The position numbers and the translations under genes are program-made. The notes under the pieces are model-generated. The model was given only the letters and a program-made list of their open reading frames with translations. It did not search any database and was not told the origin of the DNA. DNA of 64,000 bases from Demequina zhanjiangensis (GTDB lineage Bacteria; Actinomycetota; Actinomycetes; Actinomycetales; Demequinaceae), in assembly GCF_030418315.1 (NCBI RefSeq), contig NZ_JAUHPV010000002.1:434001-498000 (forward strand). Reading direction: 5' to 3'. Of the stretch, positions 6,644 to 50,056 are shown piece by piece; positions within the stretch are counted from its first letter, which is position 1; each line of letters begins with the position of its first letter.

Positions 6644-7807
6644 TCAGCAGCCGCAGGCGTAGTGCGTGGCACCTCGGCTCGTGGCTTCCCCGTACGCGAC
6701 ACCGCCGCCGTACGCCGCGCCGTCGCCGTCCTGTGGTGCCTCGTCCATCTGCGAGACGGTTCCCGAGGCGATGTCATATCCGATCACCGTAGGCGTCTGG
6801 GAGTCCGTCCAGATCTCCATGACGACCACCCCGTCGACGACGTTCGTGCCGACGTTCTCCATCGGCAGCCCGGCAGCCTGGGGCACCTGGAACGGTGTCG
6901 ACGTGTCGGACGCGAGGTCGTAGAGCACGAAGTCACCGCTGAGGTCCGCGTGGTCGTACTCCAGCAGCACCACGGAGTCGCCGTCCTCGGACGTGACGGT
7001 GGTCGAGTAGACGCCCTCCCACCACGCGAGCGCGTCGGGGAAGTCGTCGACCGCTGATGCGGCCGCCCACTCGTGTGCCGCCGCATCCCAGCGGTACAGC
7101 TTGGTGCCGTTGCTGGAGGTCGCGCTCCACAACTCGTTGCCCTCCGCATCCGCGGAGACGAAGGAGTTCCTCCCTGCGTTCGCACCGTAGGAGGAGAAGA
7201 CGATGTCCTCCGACTCACCCGAGCGCAGGTCATAGCGGGCCGAGGCCCACCCGCCGGCCCAGGTGACGCGAATGACGTCCTCGTCCTCGAGCCACGACAC
7301 CACGCGCGCGTCGTCCCACATCCGCTCGGGTAGCTCGCCCACCTCGAAGTACACCTCTTCGGGGCTCACGAGGTAGAGGACGGCGGGCGGAAGCACCCAG
7401 TCGTCGGCGTAGAAGTTGAGGGGAATCGAGACGACCTCCACCGACCAGCCCATGCCGACGCGGTCCCAGACCCAGTCCTCGAGCACCAGTGCCGCCGGAT
7501 AGTCGACGTTGTAGGTGCCGTCTCCATGGACGGGGTTCGGGTCGGTGCGAGCGGGCGCCGCCTCCGGGTACTCGTCCGCGAGGATCCCGTCCAGGTCGCC
7601 CTCGAACGGGTCGACGCTGCTGCTCGGCCCCGGCGTCGGCGTCGGCGTCGGCGCACCAGCGTCGGCCGTCACCGTCACGCGAGGAGCGGGTTCGTTCTCC
7701 GTACCCCCGCTCGGCCCCGCAAGCAGCCAGCCCACCCCCACCGCAAGCCCTGCGGCGACGACCACGCCACCACCGATCCACACGTTCCGCGACACCCTCA
7801 ACGCCAC
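6644..7807 (-). CDS. Membrane-anchored beta-rich protein, paralogue of the anti-sigma-like gene next door
   Basis: A 387-aa protein: short basic N-terminus, membrane span (about 10-31), a Thr/Pro linker, then a large extracytoplasmic domain. It is clearly homologous to the 7817-9094 product (shared DGILADEYPEA, EDWVWDRVG, YLVSPEEVYFE, SYGAN, DAEGNELWSA, NGTKLYRWDA) but lacks that protein's ~45-residue cytoplasmic N-terminus, so it should not bind a sigma factor in the same way. It ends in Y-A-C-G-C; the neighbour ends in Y-R-E-C-M-C, so both finish with CxC. GTG start, with GAGG about 10 nt upstream, 9 bp after the upstream stop: same operon. Function unknown; the repeated Trp/Gly motifs suggest a beta-propeller-like fold. 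Confidence 0.6.
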   Translation of the reverse strand: MALRVSRNVWIGGGVVVAAGLAVGVGWLLAGPSGGTENEPAPRVTVTADAGAPTPTPTPGPSSSVDPFEGDLDGILADEYPEAAPARTDPNPVHGDGTYNVDYPAALVLEDWVWDRVGMGWSVEVVSIPLNFYADDWVLPPAVLYLVSPEEVYFEVGELPERMWDDARVVSWLEDEDVIRVTWAGGWASARYDLRSGESEDIVFSSYGANAGRNSFVSADAEGNELWSATSSNGTKLYRWDAAAHEWAAASAVDDFPDALAWWEGVYSTTVTSEDGDSVVLLEYDHADLSGDFVLYDLASDTSTPFQVPQAAGLPMENVGTNVVDGVVVMEIWTDSQTPTVIGYDIASGTVSQMDEAPQDGDGAAYGGGVAYGEATSRGATHYACGC

Positions 7808-7816
7808 TTCGTCACC

Positions 7817-9094
7817 TCAGCACATGCATTCTCGGTAGGTGACAGCGCCGTCGGTGGGCTCGCCGTAGCCGACTGACCACATCGTCGAGCGGGCATGATT
7901 CTGCACGCCTGCCGGTCGTTCTCCTACAGCGGTCACCGCGCCTGACTCGAGATCGATCACATAGTCGTCGTCCCCCACGGCGGTGAACCACGCGGTCGAC
8001 CCGTCCAACCATTCCCCGCGCAGAAACCACGGGTCGCTGACAGGAGGGACGGACACCGTCCTGAGGGAGTCCTCGGTGAGCGAGTAGACGACGATCTCTG
8101 TCCAGGCGCCGTCCTGTGTTCCGGTGAGGATCACGCGGTCGCCCTCCTCGGAGACTGCGCACCACGACGCCGCGATCCCACCTTGTTCAGCCGACACATG
8201 GGGCGCCTGGTCAACCAGAGCGGAGGCGGACCACTCCCTGGAGCGCGCGTCCCACCGGTAAAGCTTGGTGCCGTTGTCGGAGCGTGCGCTCCACAGCTCG
8301 TTGCCCTCGGCATCGGCGGCGACGAACTGATTGGAGTCGGCGTTCGCGCCGTAAGAGGCGAAGACGATCTCCTCCCACTCGCCCGTGCGCAGGTCGTAGA
8401 CCGCACCCGAGGACCCGCCCCCGTCGAAGGACAGTCGCACCGTCTCGTCCTCCTCATCCCACGAGACGACCCTCACGCCGTTCCAGAGCGGTTCGGGCAA
8501 CAGCGCGATCTCGAAGTACACCTCTTCCGGACTTACCAGGTAGATCACCGACGGCGGCATCTCATAGACCCCCACCGAGCCTGCGTGGCGATAGTCGGGC
8601 AACCCCACGGTGGCGACAGACCATCCCTCGCCGACGCGGTCCCACACCCAGTCCTCCATCACGAGCGCTTCGGGGTAGACGATCGGTATGCCGAACTCGG
8701 TGTCGGACTCCGACACGGTCGGCCTGGTCTGCACCGCCTCCGGGTACTCATCCGCAAGGATCCCGTCCAGGTCGCCCTCGTACGGGTCGACGACCTCGGC
8801 GGGGCTGGCGGTCACCGATGCGTCCGGCGACGGCGTCACGGTCACGTGAATGGTCGGCTGACTCACCGGGTCGGCCCCACGATTCACGGTGGTGACCGCC
8901 CAGCTGGCACCGCCGATGGCGAGCACGCCCACGGTCGACGCGGCGACGGCCAGCATGGTGCGCCCCCGACGCCGGCGCCCAGCTCCGGCGAGCACGGCGG
9001 CGAGAACCTCGTCCGGCGCTCCGTCAGTGCGCGCGTCCTCCTGCGCGAACAGTGCGCGCAGCTCGTCTCCCAGCTCGTCAGACACGTCGCTCAC
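7817..9094 (-). CDS. Probable anti-sigma factor with large extracytoplasmic domain and CxC tail
   Basis: A 425-aa protein with a cytoplasmic N-terminus (MSDVSDELGDELRALFAQED, then an Arg-rich patch), one membrane span (about 47-68), a Thr/Ser/Pro linker and a ~330-residue outer domain shared with the following gene. It overlaps the 3' end of the ECF sigma gene by 17 nt, the usual arrangement for a sigma/anti-sigma pair. No ZAS motif (HxxxCxxC) is seen in the N-terminus, so it would be a non-zinc type. The very last residues are C-M-C. Inference: it holds the sigma factor at the membrane until an outside signal is sensed; the C-terminal CxC pair could be redox- or metal-sensitive. Confidence 0.6.
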   Translation of the reverse strand: MSDVSDELGDELRALFAQEDARTDGAPDEVLAAVLAGAGRRRRGRTMLAVAASTVGVLAIGGASWAVTTVNRGADPVSQPTIHVTVTPSPDASVTASPAEVVDPYEGDLDGILADEYPEAVQTRPTVSESDTEFGIPIVYPEALVMEDWVWDRVGEGWSVATVGLPDYRHAGSVGVYEMPPSVIYLVSPEEVYFEIALLPEPLWNGVRVVSWDEEDETVRLSFDGGGSSGAVYDLRTGEWEEIVFASYGANADSNQFVAADAEGNELWSARSDNGTKLYRWDARSREWSASALVDQAPHVSAEQGGIAASWCAVSEEGDRVILTGTQDGAWTEIVVYSLTEDSLRTVSVPPVSDPWFLRGEWLDGSTAWFTAVGDDDYVIDLESGAVTAVGERPAGVQNHARSTMWSVGYGEPTDGAVTYRECMC

Positions 9095-9617
9095 CCCCTC
9101 CCGCGGCCACGCCCGACCATTCAGGCGGGAGCGCCTCGACTCCGAGCGTCGCGGACAGCTTCTTCGACGCGTCGTGCACGTAGCGCTTCACGCTTCCCTC
9201 GCGGAGGCCGAGCGTGCGGGCGGTCTCCGAGGTGCTGAGCTGCTCGATGTAGCGCAGCACGATGCACGCGCGCTCGCGGGGGGACAGGTGCGCGAGCGCG
9301 GCGGCGACGGACAGCTTGTCGACGGCCCGCTGCTCTGGCCCTGGCGCCGTGTCGATCTCGCGGGTGAGCACCTCGGGCTCGGCGTCGCGCTTGCGAGCCC
9401 GCGCCCTATCGATGGTGCGCGTCACGATGGCGCGCTTCACGTATCCCTCGGCGGCCCGCAGGTTCGGGAACGTCCGCGCGCGGCTGAAGACCGAGATCAT
9501 CGCCTCCTGCACCATGTCCTCCGCATCCGCGGGATCCGAGCACACGAGCCGTGCGTAGCCGACCAGCGCGCCGTAGCGCTCGGTCAGCAACTGCGTGGCC
9601 TCGTCCTGCCAGCTCAA
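9078..9617 (-). CDS. ECF-family RNA polymerase sigma factor
   Basis: A 179-aa sigma-70 family member of extracytoplasmic-function size. Region 2: YGALVGYARLVCSDPADAED followed by MVQEAMISVFSRA, the usual helix that contacts core polymerase and the -10. Region 4: LSPRERACIVLRYIEQLSTS with a helix-turn-helix ending LREGSVKRYVHDASKKL. This resembles the actinobacterial SigE-like group (SAV_1012-type). Start is TTG 9617 with AGGGGGAT 5 nt upstream. First gene of a three-gene operon with two membrane partners. A minus-strand CATAGT at 9697-9702 could be its -10. Target genes cannot be told from this window. Confidence 0.88.
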   Translation of the reverse strand: MSWQDEATQLLTERYGALVGYARLVCSDPADAEDMVQEAMISVFSRARTFPNLRAAEGYVKRAIVTRTIDRARARKRDAEPEVLTREIDTAPGPEQRAVDKLSVAAALAHLSPRERACIVLRYIEQLSTSETARTLGLREGSVKRYVHDASKKLSATLGVEALPPEWSGVAAGGGERRV

Positions 9618-9826
9618 CGGATCCCCCTCAAAGGACGCGGTCCCTCCGTGCCCTCCACCCTGGAGAACGGCGGTTCGCGCGGACCGGTTGGGGGTGACTA
9701 TGCAGGAGTCTCACGGGGTGCGCAAGATCGCGTCGGAGCCTCCGCACAGAACTTTCTCAAAGCCAATAACGCACTTGGGGACCTTGGTCCCGCGAAAGCC
9801 GCGAGAACGGCTCGTAATGTCTACAT

Positions 9827-9967
9827 CAGACGTGAGGGCGACAGAGAAGTCGCCTGACATAAAGCGTGGCTCGGACGGTCATCCGGGGACTTGACCGTCC
9901 GAGCCGCATCTTCTTTCTGGCGCTGTGATCTCGCTCCCTCCCCTGAGATCCGGCGCCAGAATTTTGT
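9827..9967 (+). ncRNA. Candidate small RNA with three consecutive hairpins
   Basis: The 403-bp gap 9618-10020 has no convincing gene. Its right half holds three well-formed stems on the plus strand: GGCGAC/GTCGCC (9837-9842/9849-9854, 6-nt loop); a 14-bp perfect stem (9868-9881/9892-9905) with loop TCCGGGGACT; and a two-part stem (9917-9923/9953-9959 plus 9927-9932/9945-9950) with pyrimidine loop GCTCCCTCCCCT, followed by AATTTTGT, a proper intrinsic terminator. A -10-like TAATGT at 9815-9820 would start RNA near 9827. The G-rich loop of hairpin 2 is complementary to the C-rich loop of hairpin 3. The C-rich loop recalls the actinobacterial 6C RNA, but only one loop fits, so no family is claimed. 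Confidence 0.55.
9917..9967 (+). terminator. Intrinsic terminator of the candidate small RNA
   Basis: Outer stem CTGGCGC/GCGCCAG, inner stem GATCTC/GAGATC, 12-nt pyrimidine loop, then AATTTTGT. This is the best rho-independent terminator in the window, and it belongs to no plus-strand coding gene. Confidence 0.7.
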
Positions 9968-10007
9968 CTGCAGCCAGGTGATGTCGAGCAGCATGCGCCG
10001 CTCCCGG

Positions 10008-10013
10008 TACCTT
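10008..10013 (+). promoter_or_regulatory. -10 box TACCTT, leaderless start of 10021 gene
   Basis: TACCTT ends 7 nt before ATG 10021; no Shine-Dalgarno present. Confidence 0.5.
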
Positions 10014-10020
10014 TCCTCGC

Positions 10021-10878
10021 ATGACGCGCATCGCCCTCGCCACGACCCGCGACCTCACAGAGATCGACGCGGACGACCAGCTGCTGCTCGACGCGCTCCC
10101 CGAGTCCGAGCTCAAGGCCTGGGAGGACGACGTGGACTGGGCGGCCTACGACCTTGTCGTCATCCGCTCCACCTGGAACTACATCGACCGCCTCGACAGG
10201 TTCCTCGCGTGGGCGGAGCGGGTCTCGACCGTCACCCGCCTGGTCAATCCCGTTCCCGTCATCCGGTGGAACACGGACAAGCGCTACCTGGGCCAGCTCG
10301 CCGACGCAGGCGTGCCCGTGGTCCCCAGCGTGTTCGTCGCGCCAGGCGAGAGCGTGGACGACGCGTCGCTCACCGGCCGGGTCGTCGTGAAACCCACGAT
10401 CGCCAACGGCTCCAACGGCGCCAAGCTGATCGACGCCGACCCGCAGGCGGCCCGCGACCACCTCGGGGCCCTCCACGCCCAGGGTCGCACCGCGCTCATC
10501 CAGCCCTACCTGGACCAGGTGGACACGCTCGGCGAGAAGTCCCTCATCTTCCTCAGCGGCACCTACTCGCACGCCGCGTCCAAGGCGGCGATCCTGTCGC
10601 AGAGCATGTCCTTCTCCAGCGGGCTCTACGCCGATGAGGAGATGAGCCCCGCGACAGCCACCGAGGCCGAGCAGGAGGTGGCTCGTGCCGCCCTCGCAGC
10701 CGCCGCACGGGTGCTGCCCGAGGCCGCTGACCTCGCCTACGCCCGCGTCGACCTGCTGCCGAGCGAGGAGGGCCCGATGCTCCTCGAGCTCGAGCTCACG
10801 GAGCCGAGCCTCTTCATGCCCTTCGCCGATGGAGCCGCCGCACGGGTCGCGACCTCGCTGCGCGCGCTTCTCGGCTAG
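10021..10878 (+). CDS. ATP-grasp family ligase-like protein
   Basis: A 285-aa soluble protein resembling the ATP-grasp proteins of the RimK/DcsG-like group: an N-terminal preATP-grasp half (MTRIALATTRD; YDLVVIRSTWNYIDRLDRF; NPVPVIRWNTDKRYL), then the ATP-binding core with VVVKPTIANGSNGAK (lysine plus Gly-rich loop) and the acidic metal-binding end YARVDLLPSEEGPMLLELEL. Such enzymes couple ATP hydrolysis to joining a carboxylate to an amine or thiol; the substrates here cannot be predicted. Leaderless ATG. It stands alone between the small-RNA candidate and the terC riboswitch, so context gives no pathway. Confidence 0.75.
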   Translation: MTRIALATTRDLTEIDADDQLLLDALPESELKAWEDDVDWAAYDLVVIRSTWNYIDRLDRFLAWAERVSTVTRLVNPVPVIRWNTDKRYLGQLADAGVPVVPSVFVAPGESVDDASLTGRVVVKPTIANGSNGAKLIDADPQAARDHLGALHAQGRTALIQPYLDQVDTLGEKSLIFLSGTYSHAASKAAILSQSMSFSSGLYADEEMSPATATEAEQEVARAALAAAARVLPEAADLAYARVDLLPSEEGPMLLELELTEPSLFMPFADGAAARVATSLRALLG

Positions 10879-10949
10879 GAGGCCCGGGACCTGCGCGGCG
10901 CGCGAACGCGGGTCGACACCTGCCGTCGGCGTCGCCTACCATCTCCCCA

Positions 10950-11063
10950 CGAGGGGAGTACTTCCCAAGCTCCGACCCGGTCAGTACGAGGACGCCATCG
11001 TCCTCCCGGGCGGACGCCGCGCCAGCGGTGAAGGAGACCTCAGGAGCAGCAAGCCCTGAGGAG
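10950..11063 (+). ncRNA. yybP-ykoY (Mn2+) riboswitch controlling terC translation
   Basis: The conserved loop of this class, AGGGGAGTA, is at 10952-10960, and the matching 3' element GAAGGAGACCTC at 11030-11041. GAGG (10951-10954) can pair with CCTC (11038-11041) to close P1; the middle holds a GC-rich arm. The gene behind it is terC, a known target of this class. The same CCTC is also part of CCTCAGG (11038-11044), which pairs perfectly with CCTGAGG (11055-11061) and so covers the ribosome-binding site GAGGAG (11058-11063). The two folds exclude each other, which fits a translational ON switch with metal. Class assignment is by recognition of conserved bases; the switching model is inference. 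Confidence 0.8.
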
Positions 11064-48726: not shown

Positions 48727-48742
48727 CGGGACCTAGGTCCCG
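48727..48742. repeat. 16-bp palindrome CGGGACCTAGGTCCCG between arsC and PiT
   Basis: Perfect palindrome 155 nt after arsC and 97 nt before the PiT start, followed by TTTG. A short hairpin with CTAG loop is possible (terminator) or a regulator site. The rest of this 267-bp gap shows only GC-rich filler and the PiT -10. Confidence 0.35.
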
Positions 48743-48825
48743 TTTGACCCGAGGCTCCCCGGAGGCTCGGTGCCGTCGCGGCCGGATACCGCCCGCTCGT
48801 GGCCTCGCGCGCTCGTGGGACGGAC

Positions 48826-48831
48826 GACAAT
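48826..48831 (+). promoter_or_regulatory. -10 box GACAAT, leaderless PiT start
   Basis: GACAAT ends 7 nt before GTG 48839. Confidence 0.45.
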
Positions 48832-48838
48832 TGTTCCC

Positions 48839-50056
48839 GTGAACGAACCGGTGCTGCTCGTCATCGTCGTAGCCACCGCGCTCGCCTTCGACTTCACCAA
48901 CGGCTTCCACGACACAGGGAACGCGATGGCGACCTCGATCGCCACGCGCGCGCTCAAGCCCAAGCAGGCGGTGCTGCTCTCCGCCTCCCTGAACATGGTC
49001 GGCGCGTTCCTGTCGCTGACCGTGGCCGCGACGATCGCCACGGGCATCGTCGACTCCGGCGTCGTGACGCTCGAGGTGGTGCTCGCAGGCCTCGCCGGTG
49101 GCATCGTCTGGAACCTCCTCACCTGGCTGCTGGGCATACCCTCCAGCTCCTCGCATGCGCTCGTGGGCGGCGTCGTCGGCGCTGCCCTCGCCGCCGCGGG
49201 CTCCGCGGGAGTGCTGTGGGACGGCCTCATCTCCAAGGTGCTGCTGCCCGCGCTCATCGCCCCGATCGTCGCGATCCTCGTGGCGAGCGTCGGCACGGCG
49301 CTCGTGACGCGCCTCACGAAGGACGTCCCGCAGGAGTCCAACGACAAGATGTTCCGCTGGGGCCAGATCGGCTCCGCCTCGCTCGTCTCACTCGCGCACG
49401 GCACCAACGACGCGCAGAAGTCGATGGGCATCATCCTGCTCGCGCTCATCGCCGCCGGCGCGGTGCCGTCGGACTCGTCCGTGCCGTTCTGGGTGATCGT
49501 GTCCTGTGCGCTCGCCATGGCGCTCGGCACGTACACGGGAGGCTGGCGCGTGATCCGCACGCTCGGCAAGGGCCTCGTCGAGCTCGAGTCGCGTCAGGGC
49601 ATGGCCGCCGAGACGTCGTCGGCCGCCGTGATCCTGCTGTCGAGCCACTTCGGCTACTCGCTGTCCACCACGCACGTGGCGACCGGCTCGATCCTCGGGT
49701 CGGGGGTCGGCATGCGCGGCGCGAAGGTCCGCTGGGGCGTGGCCGGACGCATGTTCTCGGCGTGGCTCATCACCGTACCCGCGGCGGGCGCCGTCGGCGC
49801 ACTGTTCTATGGGATCGACACGTTCGTCGGCGGCGACGTCGGCTCGTACGTGGTGTTCGGCCTTCTGCTCATCTCCGCCGCGGTGTTCTACGTGCTGTCT
49901 CGCCGCGAGCCCGTCGGCCACCACAACGTCAACCACGAGTGGGAGCCGGGCGAGCAGGCCGACGAGATCGTCGCCGAGGCCGTCGAGGCCCACGATGTGG
50001 AGCTCATCGCCGAGGGCACCGGCGCGGGCGCAGGCGGGAAGCGTGATCAGGCATGA
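48839..50056 (+). CDS. PiT family inorganic phosphate transporter
   Basis: A 405-aa membrane protein importing phosphate with protons. The duplicated PiT signature is present: FTNGFHDTGNAMATSIATRA in the first half and SLAHGTNDAQKSMGIILLAL in the second, with GIPSSSSHALVGG-like and STTHVATGSI sites between. About 10-11 spans. GTG 48839 is chosen because GACAAT lies at leaderless spacing. Overlaps the next small gene by 4 nt (ATGA). Confidence 0.93.
   Translation: MNEPVLLVIVVATALAFDFTNGFHDTGNAMATSIATRALKPKQAVLLSASLNMVGAFLSLTVAATIATGIVDSGVVTLEVVLAGLAGGIVWNLLTWLLGIPSSSSHALVGGVVGAALAAAGSAGVLWDGLISKVLLPALIAPIVAILVASVGTALVTRLTKDVPQESNDKMFRWGQIGSASLVSLAHGTNDAQKSMGIILLALIAAGAVPSDSSVPFWVIVSCALAMALGTYTGGWRVIRTLGKGLVELESRQGMAAETSSAAVILLSSHFGYSLSTTHVATGSILGSGVGMRGAKVRWGVAGRMFSAWLITVPAAGAVGALFYGIDTFVGGDVGSYVVFGLLLISAAVFYVLSRREPVGHHNVNHEWEPGEQADEIVAEAVEAHDVELIAEGTGAGAGGKRDQA

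Follow-up and report, generated by a model that had tools for sequence, protein, structure and literature searches.

A small RNA family of Demequina with a DosR/DevR-type promoter box and candidate target sites at cydA and pflA

6C RNA is a bacterial RNA known from actinobacteria and is defined by two hairpins with C-rich loops. B11 is described as bearing two C-rich loops (PMC10470900). DrrS (MTS1338) of Mycobacterium tuberculosis is a structured small RNA with a 5' stem-loop and a single DosR site 34 bp 5' of its main start, in a class II-like promoter, and the source for this also states that the proximal DosR site overlaps the -35 region and gives the SigA -10 element as TANNNT (PMC5360333). 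DrrS has been reported (PMC11446857) to bind the cydC mRNA at a site in the coding region, which was read as stabilising. The consensus for DosR is given as TTSGGGACTWWAGTCCCSAA (PMC2275270) and the OsdR site as AGGGCCGATCGGCCCT (PMC5069765), and for M. smegmatis PMC7739888 states that induction of cydA is independent of DevR.

The locus described here lies in a 64,000-nt stretch of DNA from Demequina zhanjiangensis (the window) and, as far as can be read from the DNA alone, resembles DrrS in being a structured small RNA with a DosR-type site by its promoter. Unlike DrrS, which comes from another genus and has its cydC site in the coding region, the Demequina RNA has its candidate sites in the start regions of cydA and pflA. 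With the DosR/DevR and OsdR regulons it shares a palindromic box, a DevS/DevR-like pair and low-oxygen genes; in contrast to both, the central WW of the Demequina box is flanked by C and G, and the box precedes cydA, whereas M. smegmatis cydA is no DevR target according to PMC7739888. A hairpin with a C-rich loop is common to 6C/B11 and the Demequina RNA, but the latter lacks a covariance-model match and has a G-rich loop 2 and three stems. Our literature search found no paper on a small RNA in Demequina and none whose title or start of abstract shows such an RNA. The locus belongs to a new family of RNAs, conserved across most of Demequina, whose general type is familiar.

Table 1. Features of the small RNA locus, in positions of the window.
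Feature	Position	Strand	Evidence or remark
DosR/DevR-type box, palindrome GGGACCTTGGTCCC, centre at -42.5 from inferred start	9778-9791		spacing kept in 33/33
-10 element (TAnnnT), TAATGT	9815-9820	+	spacing kept in 33/33
Small RNA gene, three hairpins	9827-9967	+	fold, covariance model, covariation
Stem-loop 1	9836-9855	+	both-side changes in 5/6 modelled pairs
Stem 1 pairing	9836-9842/9849-9855	+	predicted fold
Stem-loop 2	9866-9907	+	both-side changes in 9/13 modelled pairs
Stem 2 pairing	9866-9881/9892-9907	+	predicted fold
Loop 2, UCCGGGGACU	9882-9891	+	putative seed, complementary to GUCCCC at cydA and pflA
Stem-loop 3 with bulge	9915-9961	+	both-side changes in 8/17 modelled pairs (helices 3 and 4)
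Stem 3 pairing, bulge at 9926	9915-9933/9944-9961	+	predicted fold
Loop 3, CUCCCUCCCC	9934-9943	+	candidate partner of loop 2 or of G-rich ribosome-binding sites
U-tract, TTTT	9962-9965	+	kept in the genus in 8/35 only

A sequence-only reading of this DNA had proposed three stems between 9827 and 9967, and all three are present in the predicted plus-strand fold of that interval, for which a minimum free energy of -77.3 kcal/mol and a z-score of -7.5 were obtained (equally stable shuffles, 0/200). Mechanically called open reading frames overlap the interval; on reading, none was taken as a gene. A strong intrinsic terminator had been proposed as well, and this applies only to the present species and a small number of others, since TTTT follows stem 3 in only 8 of 35 distinct homologues. 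The same reading had taken it for the sole textbook U-tract terminator of the window, in which runs of at least 4 nt comprise two TTTT and two AAAA. The output of a terminator prediction over 9000-11000 did not contain a site after stem 3, and a terminator scan lacking a model for bulged stems gave no sites.

The covariance model was built from 33 sequences. Over 35 distinct sequences, 95.5% of cells were paired and both sides had changed in 22 of 36 pairs, a count taken from an alignment that was fitted to the model and is therefore biased toward structure; none of 500 shuffles reached any of the five measures used, and slid controls paired 30-44% of cells. With an unfitted alignment, RNAalifold gave compensatory changes in 16 of 24 pairs, and by either count the structured small RNA passed the check for covariation across relatives. 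Since G-U cells outnumber A-C cells in the alignment (76 vs 18), the plus strand is probably the RNA; the model also matches the minus strand of the same loci, weakly. In all 35 distinct sequences CAUCCGGGGAC of loop 2 and UCCCC of the loop 3 region are invariant, and GGGGA of loop 2 is complementary to UCCCC of loop 3 over 5 bp, so that a kiss between the two loops is possible in 35/35. Because of this invariance, covariation is silent on the kiss, for or against, and as the loops also match start regions of mRNAs, their conservation could be explained without it. We regard the existence of this small RNA gene in Demequina as extremely likely.

With E<1e-15 as the threshold, the model detects the RNA in 36 of the 44 Demequina genomes, although the match in G029 is partial and lies at a contig end. 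It gave a weak match or none in the other eight (G003, G007, G013, G018, G019, G032, G035 and G064). In a rough tree made from two gene fragments, these eight form about three lineages. One of them, G019, is a draft assembly in about 230 contigs and retains the cydA box and site, so its small RNA may be absent through assembly. When the DNA of 59 relatives was searched, homologues turned up within the same genus. Scanning genome contigs with a pattern yielded 36 records, 29 of which were Demequina, Demequinaceae or one actinobacterial MAG that is identical to the relative G021 across the small RNA; the seven non-Demequina records reached model scores of at most 12.7 bits (E 0.047) and were left out of the alignment. 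An order-wide search covered 396 genomes, 34 of them counted in the genus (30 with a strong match), and among the roughly 362 genomes of other genera it returned a single marginal match (G206, E 0.009), with few candidates scored per genome and strict filters, under which distant relatives could be lost. In G192, from another genus of the family, this search did not find the small RNA.

At the Rfam gathering score no match was obtained at the small RNA and no 6C match in the window. Lowering the threshold to E<=10 for 9600-10060 gave nine sub-threshold matches, mostly to microRNA models, and 6C (RF01066) was not among them. Membership in 6C was rejected on this ground and because loop 2 is G-rich and loop 3 alone is C-rich in 35/35 sequences, in keeping with the initial remark that the RNA does not fit 6C fully. 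The RF01066 cut-off of 47 bits was passed by none of 41 Demequina genomes, and 15 of the 41 contain sub-threshold 6C matches elsewhere in the genome; one such match, of 42.9 bits (L081, G029:C15:11906-11966), lies away from the small RNA. The RNA constitutes a real family without Rfam match, with plausible candidate targets.

The main clue to the function of the small RNA is its promoter box, of which the sequence-only reading made no mention. A GGGACCWWGGTCCC-like palindrome is located exactly 23 nt 5' of TAnnnT in 33/33 distinct Demequina rows (35 rows, two of them set aside as unrelated records), and it is exact in 19 of the 33 and has 1-3 departures in the others. From the position of TAnnnT we infer a start site near 9827, at which expression would begin, and hence the distance of the box centre. 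As in DrrS-like small RNAs, the DosR-type box overlaps the -35 region, judged by sequence only. In this genome GGGACNWWNGTCCC occurs at seven places, compared with one for the reversed pattern: at the small RNA, before an NDH-2-like oxidoreductase, twice before cydA, and close to three loci named by reading only (a phosphate permease, an OsmC-like gene, an ArsR/permease region). A second exact box, GGGACCTAGGTCCC, is found at 48728-48741, about 30 nt 5' of a predicted ORF (48770-50056, plus strand) that reads as a phosphate permease. With a strict box pattern, ten genomes gave 26 sites versus 4 for the reversed control, and no site was found in G008, G010 and G014. In other species, boxes stand beside NrdD (anaerobic ribonucleotide reductase) and beside sucC with ldh, names which are backed by Pfam, and some boxes adjoin genes that make no obvious sense. 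The best box of cydA shows at most two departures in 35 of the 36 genomes bearing the small RNA, and TAnnnT follows this box by 24-25 nt in 32 of the 36.

The cyd operon encodes, with Pfam support, CydA and CydB followed in a row by two ABC transporters, the latter read as CydD and CydC. On its 3' side lies a kinase gene; its product combines two GAF domains with HisKA_3 and HATPase, and it is a protein whose nearest relatives are DevS GAF domains and which retains an HPPM stretch, the histidine of which we take to bind haem. The convergent regulator at the same place has DevR (3c3w) as its best solved relative, with 147 bits versus 108 for NarL. The gene of the DevR-like protein is at G000:C4:15866-16483. 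Both proteins thereby carry the sequence features of a DevSR pair, namely a kinase with DevS-type GAF, HisKA_3 and HATPase and a DevR-type regulator. The region 3' of cydA was compared in eight further genomes: all eight have the kinase and six the regulator, which was not found next to the kinase in G010 and G035. Given the DosR/DevR-type box at -42.5, the DevS/DevR-like pair is the most likely activator of the small RNA, and DevR-type control as such appears probable to us. That the box belongs to a regulator other than the DevR-like protein is unlikely; this alternative, which does not conflict with the reading of the RNA that we favour, draws on 11 other GerE matches over cut-off in this genome and on the vacancy at the cyd-kinase place in G010 and G035, and has against it the resemblance of the box to the DosR consensus TTSGGGACTWWAGTCCCSAA (PMC2275270) and the adjacency of the DevR-like gene to the box-bearing cyd operon.

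We lean towards a DevR-box-controlled small RNA that would act via base pairing of loop 2. Under falling oxygen, or rising NO, the DevS/DevR-like pair would bind the box and switch on a free-standing, trans-acting RNA of about 140 nt. Its G-rich loop 2 (CCGGGGAC) would then pair in the cell with GUCCCC at the translation starts of cydA (cytochrome bd oxidase) and pflA (pyruvate formate-lyase activase), and loop 3 may bind the GGAGG next to it or further ribosome-binding sites rich in G. Such pairing would block ribosomes and lower the translation of cydA and pflA, and the RNA, with cydA bearing the same box, would restrain low-oxygen genes as an incoherent feed-forward brake. Until a target arrives, the kiss of loops 2 and 3 may hold the seed. 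The sign of the effect is tentative, and we would put repression rather than activation at somewhat below an even chance.

The start of cydA in this genome reads AAAGGAGGUCCCCGGCAUG, and its GUCCCCGG is complementary to loop 2. Searching 12 genomes for GGAGGTCCCCN{1,10}RTG gave 48 matches (some overlapping) versus 15 for the reversed pattern, with cydA, pflA, mnmA and an amidohydrolase as likely real starts among them, and GGAGGTCCCC occurred in one of 167 predicted start regions, that of cydA. When GUCCCC was counted within 30 nt of the start, it was present at cydA in 22 of 36 genomes with the small RNA vs 1 of 8 without, and at pflA in 24 of 33 vs 1 of 7, against a background of 10/166 predicted starts; Fisher p values were 0.019 (cydA) and 0.007 (pflA), with relatedness ignored and the cydA site first noticed in the same data. 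The pflA counts omit G063 (gene split in two frames) and G007 (contig fragment), and no pflA match was obtained in G028 and G031. The exceptions lacking the small RNA are G013, with GUCCCCGG before pflA, and G019, with GGAGGUCCCC before cydA.

Genomes were also divided by loop into group I (ACUUG) and clade II (ACUAG or ACGAG), group I being a loop type and not a clade, as G005 and G021 stand apart from the rest in the rough tree. At cydA, GUCCCC is present in 19 of 22 group I genomes and in 3 of 14 of clade II, though the clade II loop is unchanged; at pflA the counts are 15/21 and 9/12. All nine clade II pflA sites lie inside the first codons, as a Val-Pro codon pair, whereas in most other genomes the site precedes AUG. 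Five group I genomes (G000, G001, G004, G012 and G060) have upstream of pflA the shorter match AUCCCC. Judging from this complementarity, we consider the question whether cydA and pflA are targets of the small RNA to be evenly balanced.

Other candidates were discarded. For mnmA, GUCCCC was equally common with the small RNA (20/36) and without it (5/8), which means that such sites can persist for other reasons. By eye, mnmA leaders (L256-L285, L297-L310) contain GGGUCC-like and UCCCC stretches near the start, with or without the small RNA, and these perhaps form a hairpin over the ribosome-binding site. In the case of sucC (two genomes) and of the NDH-2-like gene (one genome), a box is present and pairing is poor. 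Several of nine genomes inspected, the window's own not among them, have pflB starts with GGGAGAGGGAG or similar, fitting loop 3. Upstream of pflB (L327-L330), degenerate boxes such as GGGCACTTGGTCCC were seen by eye.

A more elaborate form of loop 2 pairing would be a self-latched, two-fingered regulator, in which the resting kiss is displaced by a GGAGG-UCCCC target, with loop 2 on GUCCCC and loop 3 on the ribosome-binding site, which would serve as a feed-forward brake inside the DevSR regulon, and whose pflA site would have moved between lineages from a place ahead of the start codon into the first codons, with the RNA loop fixed; we find this doubtful. Little credence is likewise given to the proposal that the DevR-box small RNA is real but works in a 6C-like manner, with loop 3 binding many G-rich ribosome-binding sites, loop 2 shielding it by kissing and the cydA and pflA sites being incidental. 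The presence of UCCCC in the loop 3 region together with GGGGA in loop 2 throughout the 35 sequences and the GGGAGAGGGAG-type pflB starts would suit such a mode of action, as would the report (PMC10470900) that B11/6C represses a gene whose six-G 5' UTR is open to either C-rich loop and that single-loop mutants still repress; a shield alone, however, leaves unexplained why the whole of CAUCCGGGGAC is invariant and why GUCCCC is in excess at cydA and pflA. It is improbable that the RNA binds a protein or acts as a sponge, with GGA of loop 2 as a decoy and no base-pairing regulation: the invariant loop 2 does present GGA in a hairpin loop, but target-like sites were found for this loop.

Among 30 named loci, the small RNA mostly follows a member of a single family of transporter-like proteins or neighbours an ECF-type sigma gene (sigma named from Pfam, in the window only, and transporter from reading), and the families and orientations of the downstream genes differ among species. 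In the window, two adjacent related minus-strand ORFs (6644-7807 and 7817-9094) share a EGDLDGILADEYPEA stretch and lie beside the ECF-type sigma gene at 9078-9617. Although in many species a predicted same-strand gene starts about 100 nt or less downstream, a role in cis, as leader or terminator for the gene next to it, is very improbable and was rejected, because downstream families vary, some next genes are on the opposite strand or more than 1 kb away, and the small RNA has a promoter of its own in which the spacing is constant.

The RNA family is directly testable, since it comes with a promoter box, a putative regulator and two possible target genes. If the reading given here is right, small RNAs under DevR-type control would be more widespread in actinobacteria than DrrS of M. 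tuberculosis alone suggests, and would be open to study outside pathogens.
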